From Thermoproteales archaeon (GTDB taxonomy: Archaea; Thermoproteota; Thermoprotei; Thermofilales; Thermofilaceae): 38,448 nucleotides of DNA. Positions 29,711-38,447 of this stretch are shown here, in pieces. The DNA is taken from NCBI GenBank assembly GCA_021163245.1, contig JAGGXB010000110.1:1-38448 (forward strand), written 5' to 3'. The notes beneath the pieces were generated by a model. The model searched no databases. It was not told the DNA's origin and saw only the letters and a list, made by a program, of their open reading frames with translations. Numbering within the stretch: the first letter of the stretch is position 1; each line of letters begins with the position of its first letter. The translations under genes were made by a program, and so were the position numbers.

Positions 29711-30421
29711 ATGTTTAATAAAAAACTATTCATCTCTTATATACTTATATTCCTCTTAGGCATGGCTTTAGGTATCTATACAATATCTAAAATAAACAAC
29801 GAAACAAGAATTAATCACTTGGAAACGGAGATAGATAAACTAAGAAAAAGAATACAGACACTTGAAGAAAACATTTCTTCTCTCGAAGAAATTCTTAAAA
29901 ATAAAGACTTACAAATAGCTAAGCTGGAAAAGACCATTAAGCAATGTAATACTACTATAATTCTATTACCAGACACTGAATACTACAACATTATAAAGAA
30001 ACTTATCTCAAATGCAAACAAAAGCATTTATCTAGCAATGTACTCTATCAAATATGACCCCTATGAGACAGTGTATAACGACCCTGTTAACATGTTACTA
30101 AAACTTTTAATCGAAGCCCATAATAAGGGAATCGAAATAAAAATACTAGTGGATGACAAAACCAATACTAGCTATCGACAAACAATCAAATATCTAAAAA
30201 ACCATGGAATAGAGATAAAGTTAGACCCAAGGAAAGACATCACGACACATGTAAAAATCTTAATAATTGATTCCACATGGATAATCATAGGAAGCCATAA
30301 CTGGACAGAATCAGCATTATGGCATAATAATGAATACAGTGTACTAATAGAAAACCAATACTATGCCAAAAAAATGGAACAATACTTTTACAATCTATGG
30401 AAAAATGGAAGAAACTGCTAA
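29711..30421 (+). CDS. Membrane-anchored phospholipase D-type hydrolase
   Basis: A 236-residue protein. Residues 7-27 are a membrane anchor, 30-78 a long coiled coil rich in E, K and L, and 80-236 a single phospholipase D domain. The HKD motif is H-V-K-I-L-I-I-D followed by I-I-G-S-H-N-W-T, complete with the trailing G-S-x-N. One HKD per chain means it must dimerise to be active, like the Nuc/BfiI endonucleases. The usual activity of this compact group is phosphodiesterase or nuclease; the anchor puts it at the cell surface if the N-terminus is inside. The neighbouring winged-helix gene is convergent. Confidence 0.88.
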   Translation: MFNKKLFISYILIFLLGMALGIYTISKINNETRINHLETEIDKLRKRIQTLEENISSLEEILKNKDLQIAKLEKTIKQCNTTIILLPDTEYYNIIKKLISNANKSIYLAMYSIKYDPYETVYNDPVNMLLKLLIEAHNKGIEIKILVDDKTNTSYRQTIKYLKNHGIEIKLDPRKDITTHVKILIIDSTWIIIGSHNWTESALWHNNEYSVLIENQYYAKKMEQYFYNLWKNGRNC

Positions 30422-31010: not shown

Positions 31011-31085
31011 TATACTAACATATATATATTTATCTATAAAATTATAGATTAACTATATTCTAACTATCTACTTATACTAACATAT
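31011..31085. promoter_or_regulatory. Operator-like cluster in the divergent promoter region
   Basis: Two identical 13-base direct repeats, TATACTAACATAT, lie at 31011-31023 and 31073-31085, 62 bases apart (about six helical turns). Between them is a palindrome ATCTATAA-AA-TTATAGAT at 31032-31049. All of it sits in the 136 bases between the winged-helix gene and the gene starting at 31136, so self-regulation by the winged-helix protein is the natural guess. Confidence 0.5.
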
Positions 31086-31135
31086 TTTTAGAAGAAAATT
31101 TGATATCCATTTAAAAGATAATTACTTAGTTATTG

Positions 31136-32276
31136 ATGAATAAGAAAGAAAATAACATAAAGTATTTAGCAATAAATAAACAGACAGAAAGAAAAATAGA
31201 CAAACTTCTAAATTATGTAAATAAAAACAATCTCGTTAAAGAAATATTAGAAACAATAAATAAACTATCCTATAACAACAAACCCGACATGATCCCTACA
31301 TATATAGTTGATCTACTCAACAAGATCGAAAACCCAAACAAATATACCGATCTAACATGGTGGATAAAAGCATGGAAAAAAGCTGCCACTCTCAAAGAAA
31401 AATATCTACCAGCCAAAATCATAGGCGACCTAGACTACGTTGAAACAAGCCTAACCAACGCAAAAGCTTTAAAAATAACCGAGAAAACACTCATAAAAAT
31501 ATTTACACCTTGGAGCAACAAAACAATATACGGGACCGCATCCTTTTCCTCAGGAGTCTTTAGAATATCAGTAAAAAGACAAATACTATACTTGACAGAC
31601 TTTCTAAACCTAGAAAAACAAAAAACCATAGATAAGGCGAAGACAGAACCATTCTTTATAGGAGTACAAGAACAGGAAAAAATAGGCTTCTTCACCTCCA
31701 TCACTACAGGAGGAATATTCGCATTACCCAACGAAATACCGAAAAATAGGGAAACAAAAACTCGTATTCATAAAGATAACAAGCAAAGATCAACTGCAGA
31801 AAACATATGCAAGAACAATAAACTTTTCAACATCAAAAACGAGAAAACCCGAACCATATCTCCAAATAAGAGAACTACCCAAAGGAATATACTACGTCAC
31901 ATTATACACCCATAAAAGCTTCCTTTCACAGATACCAGAACAAACAACCAACCTATATGGACAAAACATAAAGATAAACAAACATACACCACTAGAAAAC
32001 ATCGAGAAAACCGGAAGATACCAATACAAGATAGGTAAAGCAATACTATCAATAAACAACGAAACCTACCTACCAGTAAACATACAAGTAGACACAAAAA
32101 ACAACCAAATAAACTATACCCAAACAGCAGATGATAACAAAACAATACTAAACATAATACAACCACTAACAGAAAACAAACCAAACAAACTAGAAATAAA
32201 AGCCTACGGCAAAAACTATCCAGTAACAGCGATAAGAGAAATCTCAGTTCAAATAAAAAATATATCTACATCTAAC
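31136..32276 (+). pseudogene. Unknown gene with an apparent frameshift near 31745
   Basis: From the ATG at 31136 a protein-like frame runs for about 200 codons (K-I-D-K-L-L-N-Y-V... to F-A-L-P-N-E-I-P) and then turns into low-complexity K/N/R/T sequence until a stop at 31915. The frame one base further on becomes protein-like at the same point (K-I-G-K-Q-K-L-V-F-I-K-I-T) and continues with beta-rich sequence to at least 32276. One extra A in AAAAA (31742-31746) would explain the shift. The shifted frame has no stop before it merges in frame with the cassette A gene at 32277. The segment is very poor in G on the plus strand and changes sharply at about 32280. I recognise no family; the first half is helical and the second beta-rich. 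Confidence 0.55.
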
Positions 32277-32999
32277 ATGTATCTTATCCTTGGCGAAATG
32301 AAAAGAAAAGATAGAATATATAGAAAAAATATCTTAATTTCCGAATACGGACTAATAGCTAAAGATCAAAAAATTTATGAGCATGTATTGAATGCAAAAA
32401 TACCAGAAATTAACAAGGATACAAGATTATTCTTTGATATAAAATTGGTTAGTTATCCTATTAGGGTACACGAGTTGAATATTGAGAACCATATATCTAT
32501 TAAGTTGGATGATAAAGTTTCAACTAGCCTGTACTATTGGAATATACTTAAAAAATATGGTAACATTGGAGATATAGGAGAAACGATAGCCGAAAAAATG
32601 ATGAATGAGATAGTGGATTTCATCATAAATAGGTATGAATTATCAAAAGATAAAATTTTCTTTGAATATCAAGGAAAAATAAGAGATAGAGACCTTTATA
32701 GATCTGATTTTGAAGTATACTGTAAAGAACATAACAATATTGTAGGATTTGTAGAGGTTTCAATAGGACAAAATATTGAAAAAACACTTAGCAAACATCT
32801 TCTCAAACAACTTGAAGAAAGATTTACTAAAGAAAGATATAGTAAAGTATTAATCGGAGTGATTATTGCTATAGAATATTCTCCTAACAATAATTTAGGA
32901 AAAATAGTAATACTAGCAAAAGAGAAAAATCAAAAAATTATAGATATAACAAAATATGTTTATAATAAAATGATTAAAAAGAGGAATAAAGATGAATAA
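32277..32999 (+). CDS. Cassette A gene 1: PD-(D/E)XK-like unknown protein
   Basis: A 240-residue protein homologous to cassette B gene 1 at 37728-38447. Shared segments, in order: Y-x-I-L (start), I-L-x-S-x-Y (about 19-24), L-D-D (77-79), G-x-I-G-E-x-I (98-104), S/P-D-F-E-V/I (Asp144), I/V-G-F/V-V-E-V-S/T (Glu160, Ser162), K-H-L-x-x-Q (173-178) and a strand I-G-V/I-I-I. A Glu helix, then D, then E-V-(S/T), then a helical Gln is the order of catalytic groups in PD-(D/E)XK nucleases, with S/T where the Lys is usual. The nuclease assignment is inference. Its stop overlaps the start of gene 2 by eight bases (ATGAATAA). The upstream frame is open without a stop, so the true N-terminus is uncertain. 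Confidence 0.7.
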   Translation: MYLILGEMKRKDRIYRKNILISEYGLIAKDQKIYEHVLNAKIPEINKDTRLFFDIKLVSYPIRVHELNIENHISIKLDDKVSTSLYYWNILKKYGNIGDIGETIAEKMMNEIVDFIINRYELSKDKIFFEYQGKIRDRDLYRSDFEVYCKEHNNIVGFVEVSIGQNIEKTLSKHLLKQLEERFTKERYSKVLIGVIIAIEYSPNNNLGKIVILAKEKNQKIIDITKYVYNKMIKKRNKDE

Positions 33000-33735
33000 G
33001 TTATTCTTTGATGAAAAGTTTATTAGAAAAATTATAGATAAAACAATAATTTCATTAGCAGAGATAAATCAAATAGATAAATCTTATTTTTCCTATAAAA
33101 TTTACACCAATCCTAAAAAATGGCCTATCGAGTTCCTTATCAAACCAAGATATTCAAAATTATGCGAGAAAAATATTTTTCCTAAATACATGCTGAATAT
33201 AAGCTTAGCATATTTTATAAAAACTAGCCTTAATAATAACAAATATCTTTTTATGATTCTTATAGCATGTATTCCTCATTTTCGAGAATATCTAGACTTT
33301 GAGTTCAAAAGATGGGGATGGTTAAGCAAGTTCAAATCATTTAATGAATTTTTATACTATCTTGAGAAAAATTGGATGCTTAATAAATTTGAATTAATCA
33401 TTCTCGAAGATAAAGATTTAAAAATACTAGAATCCACTGCACTGACAACTTATAGACATATAAATAATATTTTTAGCTTATTAGGAGATAAAGTATATCT
33501 TTGGACATATAGCGACTTAAACAAACTTTCATTCGGATTAATAGATGACTTCACAAATTTGGACAAAGAAGAAATACTAAACAGAATACCGGGCCTCATA
33601 TATAAGGCAGCAGAAACACAAGATAAATTAAAACAAAAATACATGAAAAAAATTGAATCCAAGAAAGTTATCAAGATTGATTCATGCAGACAAAAACTCT
33701 TTAACCTAGGAGTATGGGTACTTGCATCATGGTGA
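32992..33735 (+). CDS. Cassette A gene 2: conserved partner protein
   Basis: A 247-residue protein homologous over most of its length to cassette B gene 2 (37027-37728). Shared segments: F-P-K-Y followed by an alternating helix ending Y-F/I-I-K (63-78), I/V-A-x-x-x-P-x-F (about 92-97), L-E-K-N-W (124-128), I-I-L-x-x-x-x-L/I-x-x-L-E (136-148), a block ending Y-L/M-W-T-Y/W-x-x-L-x-x-L/I-S-F/I-G (169-182) and a D-F/V-T-N turn (186-189). No catalytic motif or known domain is recognised. It overlaps gene 1 by eight bases, so the two are made together and probably act as a complex. Confidence 0.7.
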   Translation: MNKLFFDEKFIRKIIDKTIISLAEINQIDKSYFSYKIYTNPKKWPIEFLIKPRYSKLCEKNIFPKYMLNISLAYFIKTSLNNNKYLFMILIACIPHFREYLDFEFKRWGWLSKFKSFNEFLYYLEKNWMLNKFELIILEDKDLKILESTALTTYRHINNIFSLLGDKVYLWTYSDLNKLSFGLIDDFTNLDKEEILNRIPGLIYKAAETQDKLKQKYMKKIESKKVIKIDSCRQKLFNLGVWVLASW

Positions 33736-33759
33736 AACACTCCTAATCTATAAAAATAC

Positions 33760-33800
33760 TAAGATATATTTCATACGTCTTTTATGAACAATATATCTTA
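33760..33800. repeat. Long hairpin between convergent genes
   Basis: TAAGATATATT (33760-33770) pairs with AATATATCTTA (33790-33800). The stem continues with TCATA/TATGA across a two-base bulge, closing a seven-base loop. The near 16-pair, AT-only hairpin lies between the cassette A stop and the stop of the convergent membrane-protein gene. It may be a transcript end for both sides, or a recombination or binding site. Confidence 0.6.
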
Positions 33801-33837
33801 TTAATGAATCCGGATTCCAATGCTAGAATTTCTTATA

Positions 33838-35073
33838 TCAGTGCGACCTTTTCCTCCTGAGTATATAGATTGCAATTACTATAGGTGCTATTACTATAGC
33901 TACAAAAAGTATCTTCATAGCAAGAAAATAAATTTCAGTAGCCATATCTGATGGCCCAATATCAACATTAGTCTTTTTCAAAGTCACATGGTTTCCTGTC
34001 ATGGTATTCACACCAGCCACTATGAATAAAGGCTCAAGATCTAGTTCCCCACAGAGAAGAATACCAGTATCTGTGTCATATAGAACTGATACACCCTCTC
34101 CTTGAAGAGTATAATTGTGATTATTGAAAAAACCCACTACTGTATAGTTATACCTAACACTGACCGCTTTCTGATGCCCATAACCAGGTATAAACATGAC
34201 ATTAGTCTTTTCGACTTTTCCCTTGATATTTTTCTCATATACCCTTGTTAAATTCACCTCTTCATACTTATGAGGAATAGGCCATAAAAACATGGCAGTC
34301 ATACCGATTTCCTTCCCCTTATAGTATACCTTTCTATTATTCAGATTTACTCTAACATAATCCATTACAGATAATACAATTTTACCGCTAGAATTCACTA
34401 AAGTAAAGTTTACTAATAGCGTCGCTTGGCTTCCTGAAATATTTATACACTTCCACATCAGATAACTCTTCCAGTCACCCTGTATTATTGTACCATTTAC
34501 GAACATGATAGACATAAAGCTATTAGCCGTGTATACTGCATATGTTCCCGGCTTCATCCAAACAGGCACAGAATAAACTGGCCGAATAGACAATACAAAA
34601 AATATCAATATAGCGATCAACGCTACTCTTCTTTCTTTAACCATGCTTAAAATATACAATATTATACCTATGATCAATATAAAAACAGCGTGCGTCAATA
34701 AGTCTCTCTCCATTCCATAAAAACTGATCTTGGCACTCACCGTACAGTTTCTATCAGCTTTAATCATTTTTATCAAAAGATAAGAATGACCTCTTTCTGT
34801 AATCTGTAGTCTCTCTATAAAACCATTAGTATTATTCCACTCCCTTAAGAATTTACCATTTGAATAAAGCTTAATATCAGCCTCACCTCTCTCGACTACA
34901 ACGTTCAAATAAATGTTTCTCGGCGCCCAAACACCATCCAAGAGCTTAAAAGACTTTCCCATAATGCAGGGAATAGACTCATTATTAGTCCATGTCGTAT
35001 AGCCTCTTATAAGAGAAGAAACAAGAAGCCCGATTCCACAAGCAATCAACGCCACAGCTAAAGCCCGGATCAT
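33838..35073 (-). CDS. Membrane protein with an exported beta-rich domain
   Basis: An integral membrane protein of about 411 residues. A signal-like hydrophobic segment is near residue 5-25; a beta-rich domain of about 100 residues precedes two close membrane helices (about 128-147 and 150-168). A second beta-rich domain with many N-x-S/T sequons follows (about 170-375), and a last membrane helix (about 385-405) is followed by a short basic tail, R-R-K-R-S-H. It is the third gene of an ABC-2 operon, four to twelve bases after the permease, and is probably an external accessory subunit. ATG 35073 with GTGAT in front of it is preferred over GTG 35082. No family recognised. Confidence 0.7.
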   Translation of the reverse strand: MIRALAVALIACGIGLLVSSLIRGYTTWTNNESIPCIMGKSFKLLDGVWAPRNIYLNVVVERGEADIKLYSNGKFLREWNNTNGFIERLQITERGHSYLLIKMIKADRNCTVSAKISFYGMERDLLTHAVFILIIGIILYILSMVKERRVALIAILIFFVLSIRPVYSVPVWMKPGTYAVYTANSFMSIMFVNGTIIQGDWKSYLMWKCINISGSQATLLVNFTLVNSSGKIVLSVMDYVRVNLNNRKVYYKGKEIGMTAMFLWPIPHKYEEVNLTRVYEKNIKGKVEKTNVMFIPGYGHQKAVSVRYNYTVVGFFNNHNYTLQGEGVSVLYDTDTGILLCGELDLEPLFIVAGVNTMTGNHVTLKKTNVDIGPSDMATEIYFLAMKILFVAIVIAPIVIAIYILRRKRSH

Positions 35074-35085
35074 ATTAATCACTAT

Positions 35086-35841
35086 CTAGTCCAAATCCAT
35101 CTTTTCAAATAAGAATAAAGAAGACAAAAAGAAGATACATGGAAAAACAATAGAAAATAAAACTGTAGCTAACGCATCTAACTCCATAATAGTTTTAAGA
35201 AAATTCGGCGAGCTTAGAGCCCTATACAAGACCACGATCAGATAATTTAGCGATAACATCTTAGCTATTTTTTCTGCATGAATAGACCAAAGAAAACCTG
35301 GAGCTATTTCAAACGTATACAGTGTTAACATTGAGCCTATAAGTGACATTAAAGGTTCCCTCAATATTACTGAGAAAAGTATAGCTAGAGTGGAGCTAAA
35401 CAAGAGCTTAACTGCAAAAACCAGTATTAAAGCTATAAATACCTTCATATCAACACCATATAAAAATTGTAAATATAGCTCCGGTAAAATTCCTGAAGGC
35501 AGAAAAACCAAGTAGTTTGTAACTAGTTTAGTAATAAGAAGACGCCTTCTACTAATAGGATAACACAAAATAGTCTTTATCAAACCATTAGATATTTGAC
35601 TTGCTATACTCTTAGAATAAATATAGCTAGATAAGCCGATAAGCAAGAAAAAGGAATACATATAGCTACTTGCAACATCTTGAAGATACACTATACTACC
35701 TCCATACAATGTTAATATTCCAGTAGTTACATTAAGACTCGCTGTATAAGCTATGAATATCAAAGCATATACCATTCCCAAAGTTAAATATCTCCATGTA
35801 AGATCATATTCCAGCCTTAGGAGATCTAATATCTTACTCAC
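35086..35841 (-). CDS. ABC-2-type transporter permease
   Basis: A 251-residue membrane protein with six hydrophobic segments and the ABC-2 plan: an N-terminal amphipathic helix (L-L-R-L-E-Y-D-L-T), then a large loop with I-K-T-I-L-C-Y-P-I-S-R-R-R-L-L, the usual coupling region between helices 2 and 3. It overlaps the ATPase gene by eight bases. With the ATPase and membrane protein it would form an exporter of unknown substrate. The start codon is GTG within a GGTGA ribosome binding site. Confidence 0.85.
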   Translation of the reverse strand: MSKILDLLRLEYDLTWRYLTLGMVYALIFIAYTASLNVTTGILTLYGGSIVYLQDVASSYMYSFFLLIGLSSYIYSKSIASQISNGLIKTILCYPISRRRLLITKLVTNYLVFLPSGILPELYLQFLYGVDMKVFIALILVFAVKLLFSSTLAILFSVILREPLMSLIGSMLTLYTFEIAPGFLWSIHAEKIAKMLSLNYLIVVLYRALSSPNFLKTIMELDALATVLFSIVFPCIFFLSSLFLFEKMDLD

Positions 35842-36733
35842 CTACTATCACCTTTCTAAAGACCTCTTCTAGACTCGTACCCACTGCTTCAATCTTATAC
35901 ACATATATACGATATTCTTCAAGCTCACCTAACACCCTATATAGTCTCCAATGAATATCCGATTTTACCAATAGGTAGCCACCTTTATCTTCTACTTCAA
36001 ACCCCCTCTCCCTAAGCAACATCATCAATCTCTTATTATTAGACGAAATTATCCTATACTCATTATATAGTCCTCTAGGAATTATCTCACCAGGCTTACC
36101 CTCTATTACAGCCTTACCTTTATCTATTATCGAAACCCATCCAGCTATTTCCTCAAGCTCCGGCAATATATGAGTAGAAACAAGAAAATTTATCCCATAC
36201 TCCTTATTCATCTTTGCAATAAGCTCCAAGATCTCTACCCTTCCTATAGGATCAAGGTTTGCCGTAGGCTCATCAAGTATTATAAGCTCCGGACTACCCA
36301 GCAAAGCCTGAGCCAATCTAAGTCTTTGCATCATTCCAGCCGAAAGACTCTCAATCCGCCTATCAACAAAATCTTTCAACCCAACTATCCCAAGAACCTT
36401 CAATACCTCTTCCCTATCTGACCCACATAGTTTAGCGACATGATTTAAAAAAGTAAACACTCTAACACTCTTAGGTAAAGCCTGACCCTCTAACATAAAC
36501 CTTGTTTTCCTCCTAATTCCAAGACTCTCACTCCAAACATCCAATCCTAAAACTCTAGCTTTCCCACTAGTCGGCTTCACTAAACCCGCAAGAATATTTA
36601 TAGTAGTTGTCTTACCAGCACCGTTAGGACCTATCAACCCCGAAATACCTTCAGGAACATGAATACTTAAATCATCAAGAGCCTTTATATGCCCAAAAAA
36701 TTTAACAAGACCTTCAGTCTCGATTACAAACAC
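35834..36733 (-). CDS. ABC transporter ATP-binding protein
   Basis: An ATPase of about 299 residues. Walker A is G-P-N-G-A-G-K-T-T, the signature L-S-A-G-M (in place of L-S-G-G-Q), Walker B L-I-I-L-D-E-P-T, and the switch His is in S-T-H-I-L-P. The Q-loop position reads M-L-E-G-Q-A-L-P. A C-terminal extension of about 90 residues is typical of drug- or lipid-export ABC-2 ATPases. An ATG at 36787 would add 18 hydrophobic residues not found in the family; GTG 36733 gives the expected M-F-V-I-E-T-E-G-L start. A palindrome lies at 36802-36821. Confidence 0.92.
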   Translation of the reverse strand: MFVIETEGLVKFFGHIKALDDLSIHVPEGISGLIGPNGAGKTTTINILAGLVKPTSGKARVLGLDVWSESLGIRRKTRFMLEGQALPKSVRVFTFLNHVAKLCGSDREEVLKVLGIVGLKDFVDRRIESLSAGMMQRLRLAQALLGSPELIILDEPTANLDPIGRVEILELIAKMNKEYGINFLVSTHILPELEEIAGWVSIIDKGKAVIEGKPGEIIPRGLYNEYRIISSNNKRLMMLLRERGFEVEDKGGYLLVKSDIHWRLYRVLGELEEYRIYVYKIEAVGTSLEEVFRKVIVGE

Positions 36734-36801
36734 AGATATTATAAAAAATATATCAAGTATATATATTAAATCCAACTTCACTGACATCTATAGATTACCC
36801 C

Positions 36802-36821
36802 AATCTTTTTATTAAAAGATT
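36802..36821. promoter_or_regulatory. Palindrome AATCTTTT-TATT-AAAAGATT upstream of the ABC operon
   Basis: Perfect eight-base arms about 70 bases before the ATPase start. The position fits an operator at the operon promoter. The rest of the gap to 37026 shows nothing identifiable. Confidence 0.4.
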
Positions 36822-37026
36822 AGAAATATACCAAAATCCAACATAATTAAGTCACCGCCCAGTCTAGAATAAATACAAAAATAAGATTACTAATGTAGGT
36901 ATTCAAGCAGAGAAAACATTTAGATAACACATAACATAAACTAAGATATCATACATAGAACCCCTATAATCATACAAGAAAAACATGTAAACAAAAGGCT
37001 CATAGAAAAATACATAGTTATATCTT

Positions 37027-37728
37027 CTAAAAATATGTTATTATCCAATTATTAATCTTATATTTAACCAAATGATCTTTCTCAATTACAATAGCCTCCT
37101 CACCTGATTCAGCACCATATATCTCTGCCATAACATCCTGTATCTTTTTCACCTTCAATATCTCTTTCCTAGCTTGTCTAACAATCTGAGACACACTCTT
37201 GTTTGTTACATCTATTACAGTACCTATACTGATGTCTTTTAAAGTATTCCACGTCCACATATAGGCGTTAGGTATCTTAGAAGCATATATCGTCCTCAAT
37301 CCAAGTTCCAGTTCCCTGTAAACATCATAGTTCTCCAATTCTCTTATATGTTCTTCTCCAAGAATTATAATATCCTCATCATGTATCCATTTATCTCTAA
37401 GCTTTTTAATAACCTCTTCCCAATCCATGACACCCATAAAATCGGGTAAAAACATAGCAACAAAAAAGAGACCCACAACATTTTTTCCAAGCTTTCCAGA
37501 ATTTTTAATATATCTCATAAATATTGTAACAGGATATTTTGGCGGAAAACTTTTTCGAACATAAAGCTTTTTATAATCAAATCCTATTGTAAATGATCCC
37601 AAGCCATTCTCTGATAGAGAATAATATGCTTCGATATAATTATTTTTGAATCCATTCAACTGAAGGAGAAGTATCGATAGTTTAAAAACTAGCTCCTTTA
37701 CTTGTTTTTCTTCAGTATACCACTCCAC
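37027..37728 (-). CDS. Cassette B gene 2: conserved partner protein
   Basis: A 233-residue paralogue of the protein at 32992-33735. It keeps the same ordered segments: F-P-P-K-Y and M-R-Y-I-K (61-75), F-L-P-D-F (93-97), L-R-D-K-W (110-114), I-I-I-L-G-E-E-H-I-R-E-L-E (120-132), Y-M-W-T-W-N-T-L-K-D-I-S-I-G (156-169) and I-D-V-T-N (172-176). The C-terminus (about 190-233) differs from cassette A. Its GTG start shares one base with the TAG stop of gene 1 (TAGTG), so translation is coupled. No known domain recognised. Confidence 0.7.
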   Translation of the reverse strand: MEWYTEEKQVKELVFKLSILLLQLNGFKNNYIEAYYSLSENGLGSFTIGFDYKKLYVRKSFPPKYPVTIFMRYIKNSGKLGKNVVGLFFVAMFLPDFMGVMDWEEVIKKLRDKWIHDEDIIILGEEHIRELENYDVYRELELGLRTIYASKIPNAYMWTWNTLKDISIGTVIDVTNKSVSQIVRQARKEILKVKKIQDVMAEIYGAESGEEAIVIEKDHLVKYKINNWIITYF

Positions 37729-38447
37729 TATACTCCACCAAGATAATTAAAATATATATCTTTATTAATAGAATACTTTTTATTGTCTCTCTTTGCTACA
37801 AATATAAAACATTGAATCTTCTTCGGATTTTCATGACTATATAATAATATTATTCCTATTCCAATTCTAATACTACTAGACCTTAATCTTTTCTGAATCT
37901 GGAAATCCAAATGCTTTATAGCATTTTCAAGATCAGTCTGTAATGTAACCTCTACTACTCCGATTATCTCAGATCCGTATAATATTTCAAAATCAGGCGC
38001 AGATTCTCCATGTTTAAGAACCCCTTTATGTAGAATTTTAATCTCGTTCTCAGATGCTGACAATTTGTCGGAGATAAACCTAGCTAAAGGCTCCCGAAAT
38101 ATACTCATTACAATATTTTCTCCAATATAGCCTAGATCCAAAGTCCTGCTCTTATCTTTTATACATTTTAGTATTTTAAAGGCAGTAGTATCATCTAATC
38201 CCAAAATTATTTTATCCTTAAATACAGTATCCTTAGATATATCACCTACATAATCCTTAGAAGTGATTTCTATCCTATCCGTATTTTTTTCTCTGAATCC
38301 CCTATCAATGTCAAGAGAATAATTAGATAATAATATTTCTCTTCTTTTATATTTAGTCCCTGCTCTTCTTTCACTTAAAATTCTATACAATACATGTCTT
38401 TCATTATTTAGCTTTATATAATATTCTTCTAGTCCTTTTATCTCATA
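37728..38447 (-). CDS. Cassette B gene 1: PD-(D/E)XK-like unknown protein (5' end outside window)
   Basis: Paralogue of the protein at 32277-32999. The frame is open up to the window edge, so the N-terminus is missing; a TTG at 38390 is the first in-frame start candidate inside, and the extra upstream residues (Y-E-I-K-G-L-E-E-Y-Y) look protein-like. Counted from that TTG, the conserved groups are G-Y-I-G-E-N-I (Glu91), A-P-D-F-E-I (Asp133), I-G-V-V-E-V-T (Glu147) and K-H-L-D-F-Q (Gln164), then the strand I-G-I-G-I-I-L. As in cassette A, the third motif has Thr/Ser where PD-(D/E)XK nucleases normally have Lys. Function not established. Confidence 0.7.
   Translation of the reverse strand, partial: YEIKGLEEYYIKLNNERHVLYRILSERRAGTKYKRREILLSNYSLDIDRGFREKNTDRIEITSKDYVGDISKDTVFKDKIILGLDDTTAFKILKCIKDKSRTLDLGYIGENIVMSIFREPLARFISDKLSASENEIKILHKGVLKHGESAPDFEILYGSEIIGVVEVTLQTDLENAIKHLDFQIQKRLRSSSIRIGIGIILLYSHENPKKIQCFIFVAKRDNKKYSINKDIYFNYLGGV

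Follow-up and report, generated by a model that had tools for sequence, protein, structure and literature searches.

Two gene pairs around an ABC operon

We analysed a 38,448-nt stretch of DNA from a Thermoproteales archaeon (assembly GCA_021163245.1), here called the window, which is the entire contig JAGGXB010000110.1 (C51) and contains two copies of a gene pair. In each copy, gene 1, whose C-terminal end is PD-(D/E)XK nuclease-like, is followed by gene 2, which encodes a small partner protein. All coordinates are window positions. The four open reading frames (ORFs) were confirmed at 32277-32999 and 32992-33735 (copy 1) and at 37728-38447 and 37027-37728 (copy 2). Two-sequence BLASTP showed the copies to be paralogous both for gene 1 (E 7e-6, 24% identity, 234 aa) and for gene 2 (E 8e-10, 23% identity, 230 aa). 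The two genes overlap by 8 nt in copy 1 (32992-32999) and by 1 nt in copy 2 (37728), and both pairs point at a minus-strand ABC-type operon between them, in which 35834-36787 is an obvious ABC ATPase by sequence. These results bear out the initial annotation, which had described pairs paralogous in both genes that keep their order and overlap and converge on an ABC operon.

That annotation had started gene 1 at 32277 and given it a length of about 240 aa, which had to be revised. The frame of copy 1 is open upstream of this position (31686-32996), and full-length gene 1 encodes a modular protein of about 620-680 aa (about 625 aa here), of which the ORF noted previously is the last ~240 residues. 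The extent was traced with P0003, a 680-aa homologue from genome G288, which belongs to the window's order and another family. Residues 92-270 of P0003 align to 31196-31738 (E 7.8e-14) and residues 310-676 to 31845-32966 (E 2.2e-34). Because these two matches lie in different frames, copy 1 is read as a longer gene with a predicted start near 31136 that is split by a frameshift near 31740, which may be an assembly error. In copy 2, residues 435-663 of P0003 align to 37791-38438, where the gene is interrupted by the end of C51. Residues 118-396 align to positions 75-938 of contig C98 from the same genome, which carries the N-terminal 386 aa reading toward the contig end and adjoining a divergent EF-2 gene. 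The ends of C51 and C98 are compatible in orientation and alignment, which suggests a join. The features are as follows.

31136..31740, plus strand: gene 1 copy 1, N-terminal part, ~201 aa in frame 2, with a putative frameshift end near 31740 (translated match to P0003; alignment)
31746..32276, plus strand: gene 1 copy 1, beta-rich middle region, frame joined to the C-terminal ORF, no start codon (open frame; match to P0003)
32249..32280, plus strand: base-composition change point in copy 1, directly before the nuclease and gene 2 cassette (third-position log-likelihood ratio, LLR, 32.6 at 32249)
32277..32999, plus strand: gene 1 copy 1, C-terminal part, which holds the PD-(D/E)XK-like domain (ORF; Brockarchaeota-only profile, E 3.6e-9)
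about 32570-32910, plus strand: PD-(D/E)XK-like core of copy 1, with IGE, DFE, EVS and HL (alignment)
32992..33735, plus strand: gene 2 copy 1, partner protein, 247 aa (ORF; paralogy; alignment)
37027..37728, minus strand: gene 2 copy 2, 233 aa (ORF; paralogy; AlphaFold2 model with pLDDT 77 and pTM 0.77)
37728..38447, minus strand: gene 1 copy 2, last 239 aa, which hold the PD-(D/E)XK-like domain, continued on C98 (ORF; AlphaFold2; Brockarchaeota-only profile, E 3.2e-8)
contig C98 (L052:1160-3), minus strand: gene 1 copy 2, N-terminal part (match to P0003)

Relatives, fold and partner

The family is undescribed. No significant match to either gene was obtained in Pfam, NCBIfam or PADLOC; the initial annotation had recognised neither family. 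No PADLOC-DB model matched either pair or the full-length homologue of gene 1 (0 families), and single-sequence scans of genome contigs, IMG/VR, phages and plasmids found no relatives. A search of Thermoproteota genomes returned one close relative per gene, both in G288, where gene 1 is the single ORF of P0003 and is directly followed by gene 2. A profile of these three close members had further matches mainly in the genus g25, which includes contig JAFNIQ010000075.1 (Candidatus Brockarchaeota GD2_1), and after addition of the g25 relatives it matched 50 places in 6 of the 8 g25 genomes, with 14 in G039 and 13 in G006. A restriction of the pair to the window genome and G288, considered earlier, was overturned by this search. 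The genomes are MAG-like (resembling metagenome-assembled genomes), the families were sampled rather than exhaustively searched, and locus counts are based on stop-to-stop ORFs and on profiles built within this analysis.

As a check for circularity, we searched all ORFs of the window and of the G288 locus (L007) with a profile of Brockarchaeota sequences only. The nuclease profile picked out exactly gene 1 of G288 (E 4.1e-11), copy 1 (3.6e-9) and copy 2 (3.2e-8), the next match having an E value of 0.27, and a profile-profile comparison of the window family with the Brockarchaeota family yielded E 8.5e-14. Homology to the Brockarchaeota proteins was detectable in the nuclease core alone and not in the N-terminal two thirds of the window-family gene 1. 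For gene 2, the Brockarchaeota-only profile matched the G288 gene (E 4.9e-6), and the profile-profile comparison gave E 2.9e-5.

Gene 2 directly follows gene 1 in 3/3 pairs of the close family and lies directly downstream of the nuclease on the same strand in about 25 loci of the sampled genomes. The pair is a unit linked across genomes, G288 among them, in line with the two-gene system proposed initially. The suggestion of a recent local duplication is not supported: with 3.4 between the window copies and 2.5-2.8 from either to G288, the distances do not bring the two together, and an unresolved tree (supports 0.13 and 0.35) cannot group them apart from G288.

Assignment of the gene 1 C-terminus to the PD-(D/E)XK or restriction endonuclease-like fold class, as first proposed, is well supported by modelling and by distant relatives that keep PD...(D/E)xK. 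The AlphaFold2 model of the C-terminal part of copy 2, built with 22 aligned relatives, has a pLDDT of ~90 for residues ~100-220 and low confidence for the N-terminal 80 residues. Its elements (H102-129, E136-140, E153-157, E160-170, H173-188, E195-203) include the alpha-beta-beta-beta-alpha-beta core of the superfamily. The top Foldseek match was 3ijm, a restriction endonuclease-like fold protein from Spirosoma linguale with the same core order (prob 1.00, E 1.1e-3, TMt 0.47), and the top match in BFVD was a protein from Halogranum tailed virus 1 that bears the name PD-(D/E)XK nuclease (prob 0.93). The family has no match at the sequence level in the PDB or Pfam, and profile searches of PDB sequences gave nothing meaningful.

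Invariant in the two window copies and the G288 homologue are G98, I100-G101-E102, D144-F145-E146, E160-V161 and H174-L175. E102, D144 and E160 thus stand in the order of acidic residues known from PD-(D/E)XK enzymes, but where the catalytic lysine would follow E160-V161, 3/3 close members have S or T instead. Most Brockarchaeota relatives retain the (D/E)xK motif (PD...EVK), in the E...D...ExK order of the superfamily, and some have ExE or ExG. Of the gene 1 motifs first noted, IGE, DFE and EV(S/T) hold in the third homologue, while K-H-L-x-x-Q is reduced to H-L and the glutamine of a RecB-like helix is not conserved. Nuclease activity of the window branch is a prediction.

Gene 2 is less readily placed. 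The DxTN motif, W158 and S167 are common to all three homologues, while the K-W first noted is not. The AlphaFold2 model of copy 2 (pLDDT 77, pTM 0.77) recurrently resembles class I secretion chaperones (CesT, ExsC, SicP; TMt near 0.5, E 0.2-1), which hints at a chaperone-like fold. Comparison of models with known structures, recommended initially for both proteins, supports the fold of gene 1; for gene 2 the best match among PDB structures had a non-significant E of 0.06.

A nuclease and partner cassette on modular proteins

Among Brockarchaeota, the nuclease domain ends proteins of 1400-2400 aa with hydrophobic segments, soluble proteins of 700-850 aa, or orphan modules of 200-280 aa that are accompanied by gene 2 and occur beside the giant versions. 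BLASTP revealed a mosaic in which related C-terminal tips are attached to different N-termini and vice versa (L041, L042, L095 and L096 versus L035, L036 and L037); the effector domain has thus been swapped between N-terminal modules in these relatives. The giant proteins (1564-2394 aa; L035:1559-8740, L036:3050-10069, L034:2813-7504) contain several hydrophobic segments and had no significant match in Pfam (L034, L035) or PADLOC.

A trace of such exchange may be visible in the window. The third-position composition of copy 1 changes at 32249 with an LLR of 32.6, compared with a maximum of 10.1 in 200 permutations and with values of at most 5.2 in 13 other window genes. The gene is A/C-rich upstream of this point and A/T-rich downstream, and gene 2 resembles the downstream part. 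In gene 1 of G288 a weaker break lies at codon 516, immediately ahead of the nuclease, and the gene 2 there again resembles the part that follows; copy 2 has no break. Several Brockarchaeota relatives also have breaks, at other positions in the protein, so the cassette boundary is not identical everywhere. The breaks fit exchange of the nuclease and gene 2 as a single cassette.

Gene 2 also varies in number. Tandem or fused extra copies follow a single nuclease in L086, L090, L097, L123 and L128, and gene 2 occurs without the nuclease in L125, L127, L129 and others. In two genomes, double gene 2 fusions lie downstream of an AAA_17 gene (L125:6636-7853, L127:4264-5526); the neighbourhood of L125 also holds pyruvate kinase and transglutaminase-like genes.

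Because the two genes are tightly linked, gene 2 recurs in extra copies, tips occur as orphans and the cassette seems to be exchanged, we favour, with middling confidence, an exchangeable nuclease effector and its cognate inhibitor, used in conflict. Each pair would form an effector-inhibitor cassette that closes a larger modular gene at its 3' end, with a PD-(D/E)XK-type nuclease as the tip. Gene 2, translated together with gene 1, would supply a small cognate partner that binds the nuclease domain and keeps it inactive, as an immunity protein or antitoxin and possibly also as a chaperone. Place and time of nuclease use may be set by the N-terminal two thirds of gene 1, with tip and gene 2 inherited and swapped as one unit among N-terminal modules. 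No hydrophobic segments were found in P0003 or, judged by eye, in the window copies; since the close family appears to lack membrane or signal segments, the protein of the window archaeon probably acts within the producing cell, perhaps as a defence or abortive-infection nuclease freed from gene 2 by some trigger. The family is patchily distributed, its paralogues have expanded and its modules are swapped, which favours conflict over a role in genome maintenance, an early suggestion for which we obtained no support.

The closest parallel is with polymorphic toxin systems, including those with Tox-REase (PMC3482391), in which a C-terminal restriction-endonuclease fold likewise sits on varied long proteins with a small gene downstream, and which also have tandem small-gene copies, orphan tips and swapping of N- and C-terminal modules. 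By this analogy, the small gene directly downstream in about 25 loci and in the window holds the position of an immunity gene, although some nucleases lack it; its inhibition of the nuclease is a prediction, and tandem, fused and nuclease-free copies would be expected of it. The window cassette differs in that it matches no Pfam toxin or immunity model, gene 1 has no secretion or membrane parts or recognisable processing domains, the hosts are archaeal, and some loci have a TGT-like neighbour. Polymorphic toxin systems are rare in archaea (PMC3482391). Few such systems or modular nuclease systems are known there, and at the time of PMC8416519 none had, by its account, been studied experimentally. 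The VARTIG modules of Thermococcales (PMC8416519), which we compared from a partial account by description and not by sequence, are also archaeal, combine a large variable modular protein with variable small genes, and have been likened to polymorphic toxins. They differ in lineage and in that Ig domains, and no nuclease, are named in that account.

Several observations weigh against the effector-inhibitor reading. Since the catalytic lysine is replaced in all close members, the window branch may lack activity or may rely on a different residue, and copy 1 may be a pseudogene. The close family has no secretion signal, unlike classical polymorphic toxins, a membrane-anchoring N-terminus being present only in the giant Brockarchaeota relatives. 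About 16 nuclease loci, including L035, L036, L042, L096 and L197, are without gene 2, which is therefore not always required. The Brockarchaeota-only profile misses both window copies of gene 2, so that their link runs via G288, and the gene 2 model matched no PDB structure significantly. Toxicity of gene 1 and its binding to gene 2 are predictions from sequence. The idea of a purely secreted polymorphic toxin is weakened by the soluble appearance of the close family and by the presence of TGT-like neighbours.

TGT-like neighbours and alternative readings

In both G288 and the distant genome G063, the gene immediately upstream of gene 1 is TGT-like and overlaps or abuts the nuclease. The two TGT-like genes match the PADLOC TGT model (~1e-4 each) and each other (E 2e-15), and that of G063 matches PF01702 at 7e-5, below the Pfam cut-off. 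The family has 13-16 matches in each of three Brockarchaeota genomes. In eight loci the nuclease lies just downstream of the TGT-like gene, on the same strand in 8/8, and in 12/20 sampled loci the next gene instead encodes a LAGLIDADG protein (PF14528, E 1.6e-16). Because the N-terminal ~30 residues of the G063 PD-(D/E)XK protein are common to these LAGLIDADG proteins (E 1.9e-8), one slot takes different nucleases. Copy 2 starts with MGQF and gene 1 of G288 with MGQY, a likeness to other slot proteins that is suggestive only.

These observations allow a second reading, the main alternative and possible if rather doubtful, in which the ancestral unit was a TGT-like protein with an exchangeable nuclease and a small partner. 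The TGT-like proteins retain CxCxxC...H, while the set lacks the two catalytic aspartates found in canonical TGT, so DNA modification is unlikely. Instead, such a protein would recognise a guanine, modified or not, in nucleic acid and direct or license the nuclease, although sensing is a guess. The window copies would descend from such units by loss of the TGT-like gene, with the cassette kept: no gene of this family was found in the window genome G000 (assembly 93% complete), and most Brockarchaeota nuclease loci bearing gene 2 have none either, which counts against the reading. Stated in full, and no less tentatively, it would be an undescribed archaeal conflict system with an altered TGT-like base sensor or licence, a swappable PD-(D/E)XK or LAGLIDADG slot and a small inhibitor, in up to ~15 copies per genome in Brockarchaeota and with two TGT-free offshoots in the window. 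Dpd systems for 7-deazaguanine modification (PMC6884629) resemble the loci of G288, G063 and Brockarchaeota in placing a TGT-family protein, DpdA, beside nuclease genes. A catalytically competent DpdA or TGT was found at none of these loci, no dpd gene set was seen and none lies at the window; a Dpd-like modification and restriction system is weakened by the missing aspartates and by the lack of such a gene in the window genome.

Recurrent TGT-like and LAGLIDADG_3 loci (L179, L183-L191, L196 and L198, from Brockarchaeota and G063), present in many copies per genome, often have a third gene of ~225 aa to which no family was assigned; its homology to gene 2 had no support (hhalign E 0.48). A 3129-aa TGT fusion ORF in L179 was dropped as masked sequence (X). 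In G248, from the window's order, a TGT-like gene (2329-3951 of L192:869-3951) is followed by a 519-aa ORF with a weak helix-turn-helix match alone, which after a possible internal start reads MGQYKRSRLEYYNW. Canonical TGT above the Pfam cut-off was present in all genomes of the window's order tested and in none of g25 (G006, G015, G031, G039, G055, G070, G077, G084), which reflects either loss of the archaeosine pathway or incomplete MAGs.

It is unlikely that gene 2 is a positive subunit of a two-protein nuclease, needed for cleavage as a DNA-binding, dimerisation or folding-chaperone component. Translational coupling, strict gene order and the weak likeness to secretion chaperones speak for this role; family members in which the nuclease has no gene 2 beside it, as well as tandem and nuclease-free copies of gene 2, speak against it. 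Still less probable is that the pairs are decayed, functionless leftovers of an acquired system, as EVS/EVT in place of EVK, the frameshift and missing start of copy 1 and the absent TGT-like gene might indicate, because the core E, D, E and H are kept across three sequences only ~25% identical, copy 2 is open across 386+239 codons, gene 2 is open in both copies and the frameshift is possibly an assembly error.

Two further features of the window lie outside these readings. A 22-nt AT-rich inverted repeat (95% complementary) has one arm (31074-31095) shortly before copy 1 of gene 1 and the other (37023-37044) at the 3' end of the second gene 2; it may have arisen by chance or point to past mobility. 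A PLD-like protein (PF13091, E 4.9e-26) with an N-terminal hydrophobic segment and a coiled coil is encoded at 29711-30421, two genes upstream of copy 1.

An unannotated gene pair thus opens onto a large and fast-changing family that comprises giant membrane proteins, orphan modules and a TGT-linked slot in which the type of nuclease is swapped. If the TGT link is functional, recognition of guanine bases would be joined to a nuclease in a manner absent from the literature searched, a 2019 mBio survey of archaeal toxins aside. If gene 2 is the inhibitor that the effector-inhibitor reading predicts, the family would provide small, testable effector-inhibitor pairs from Thermoproteota.

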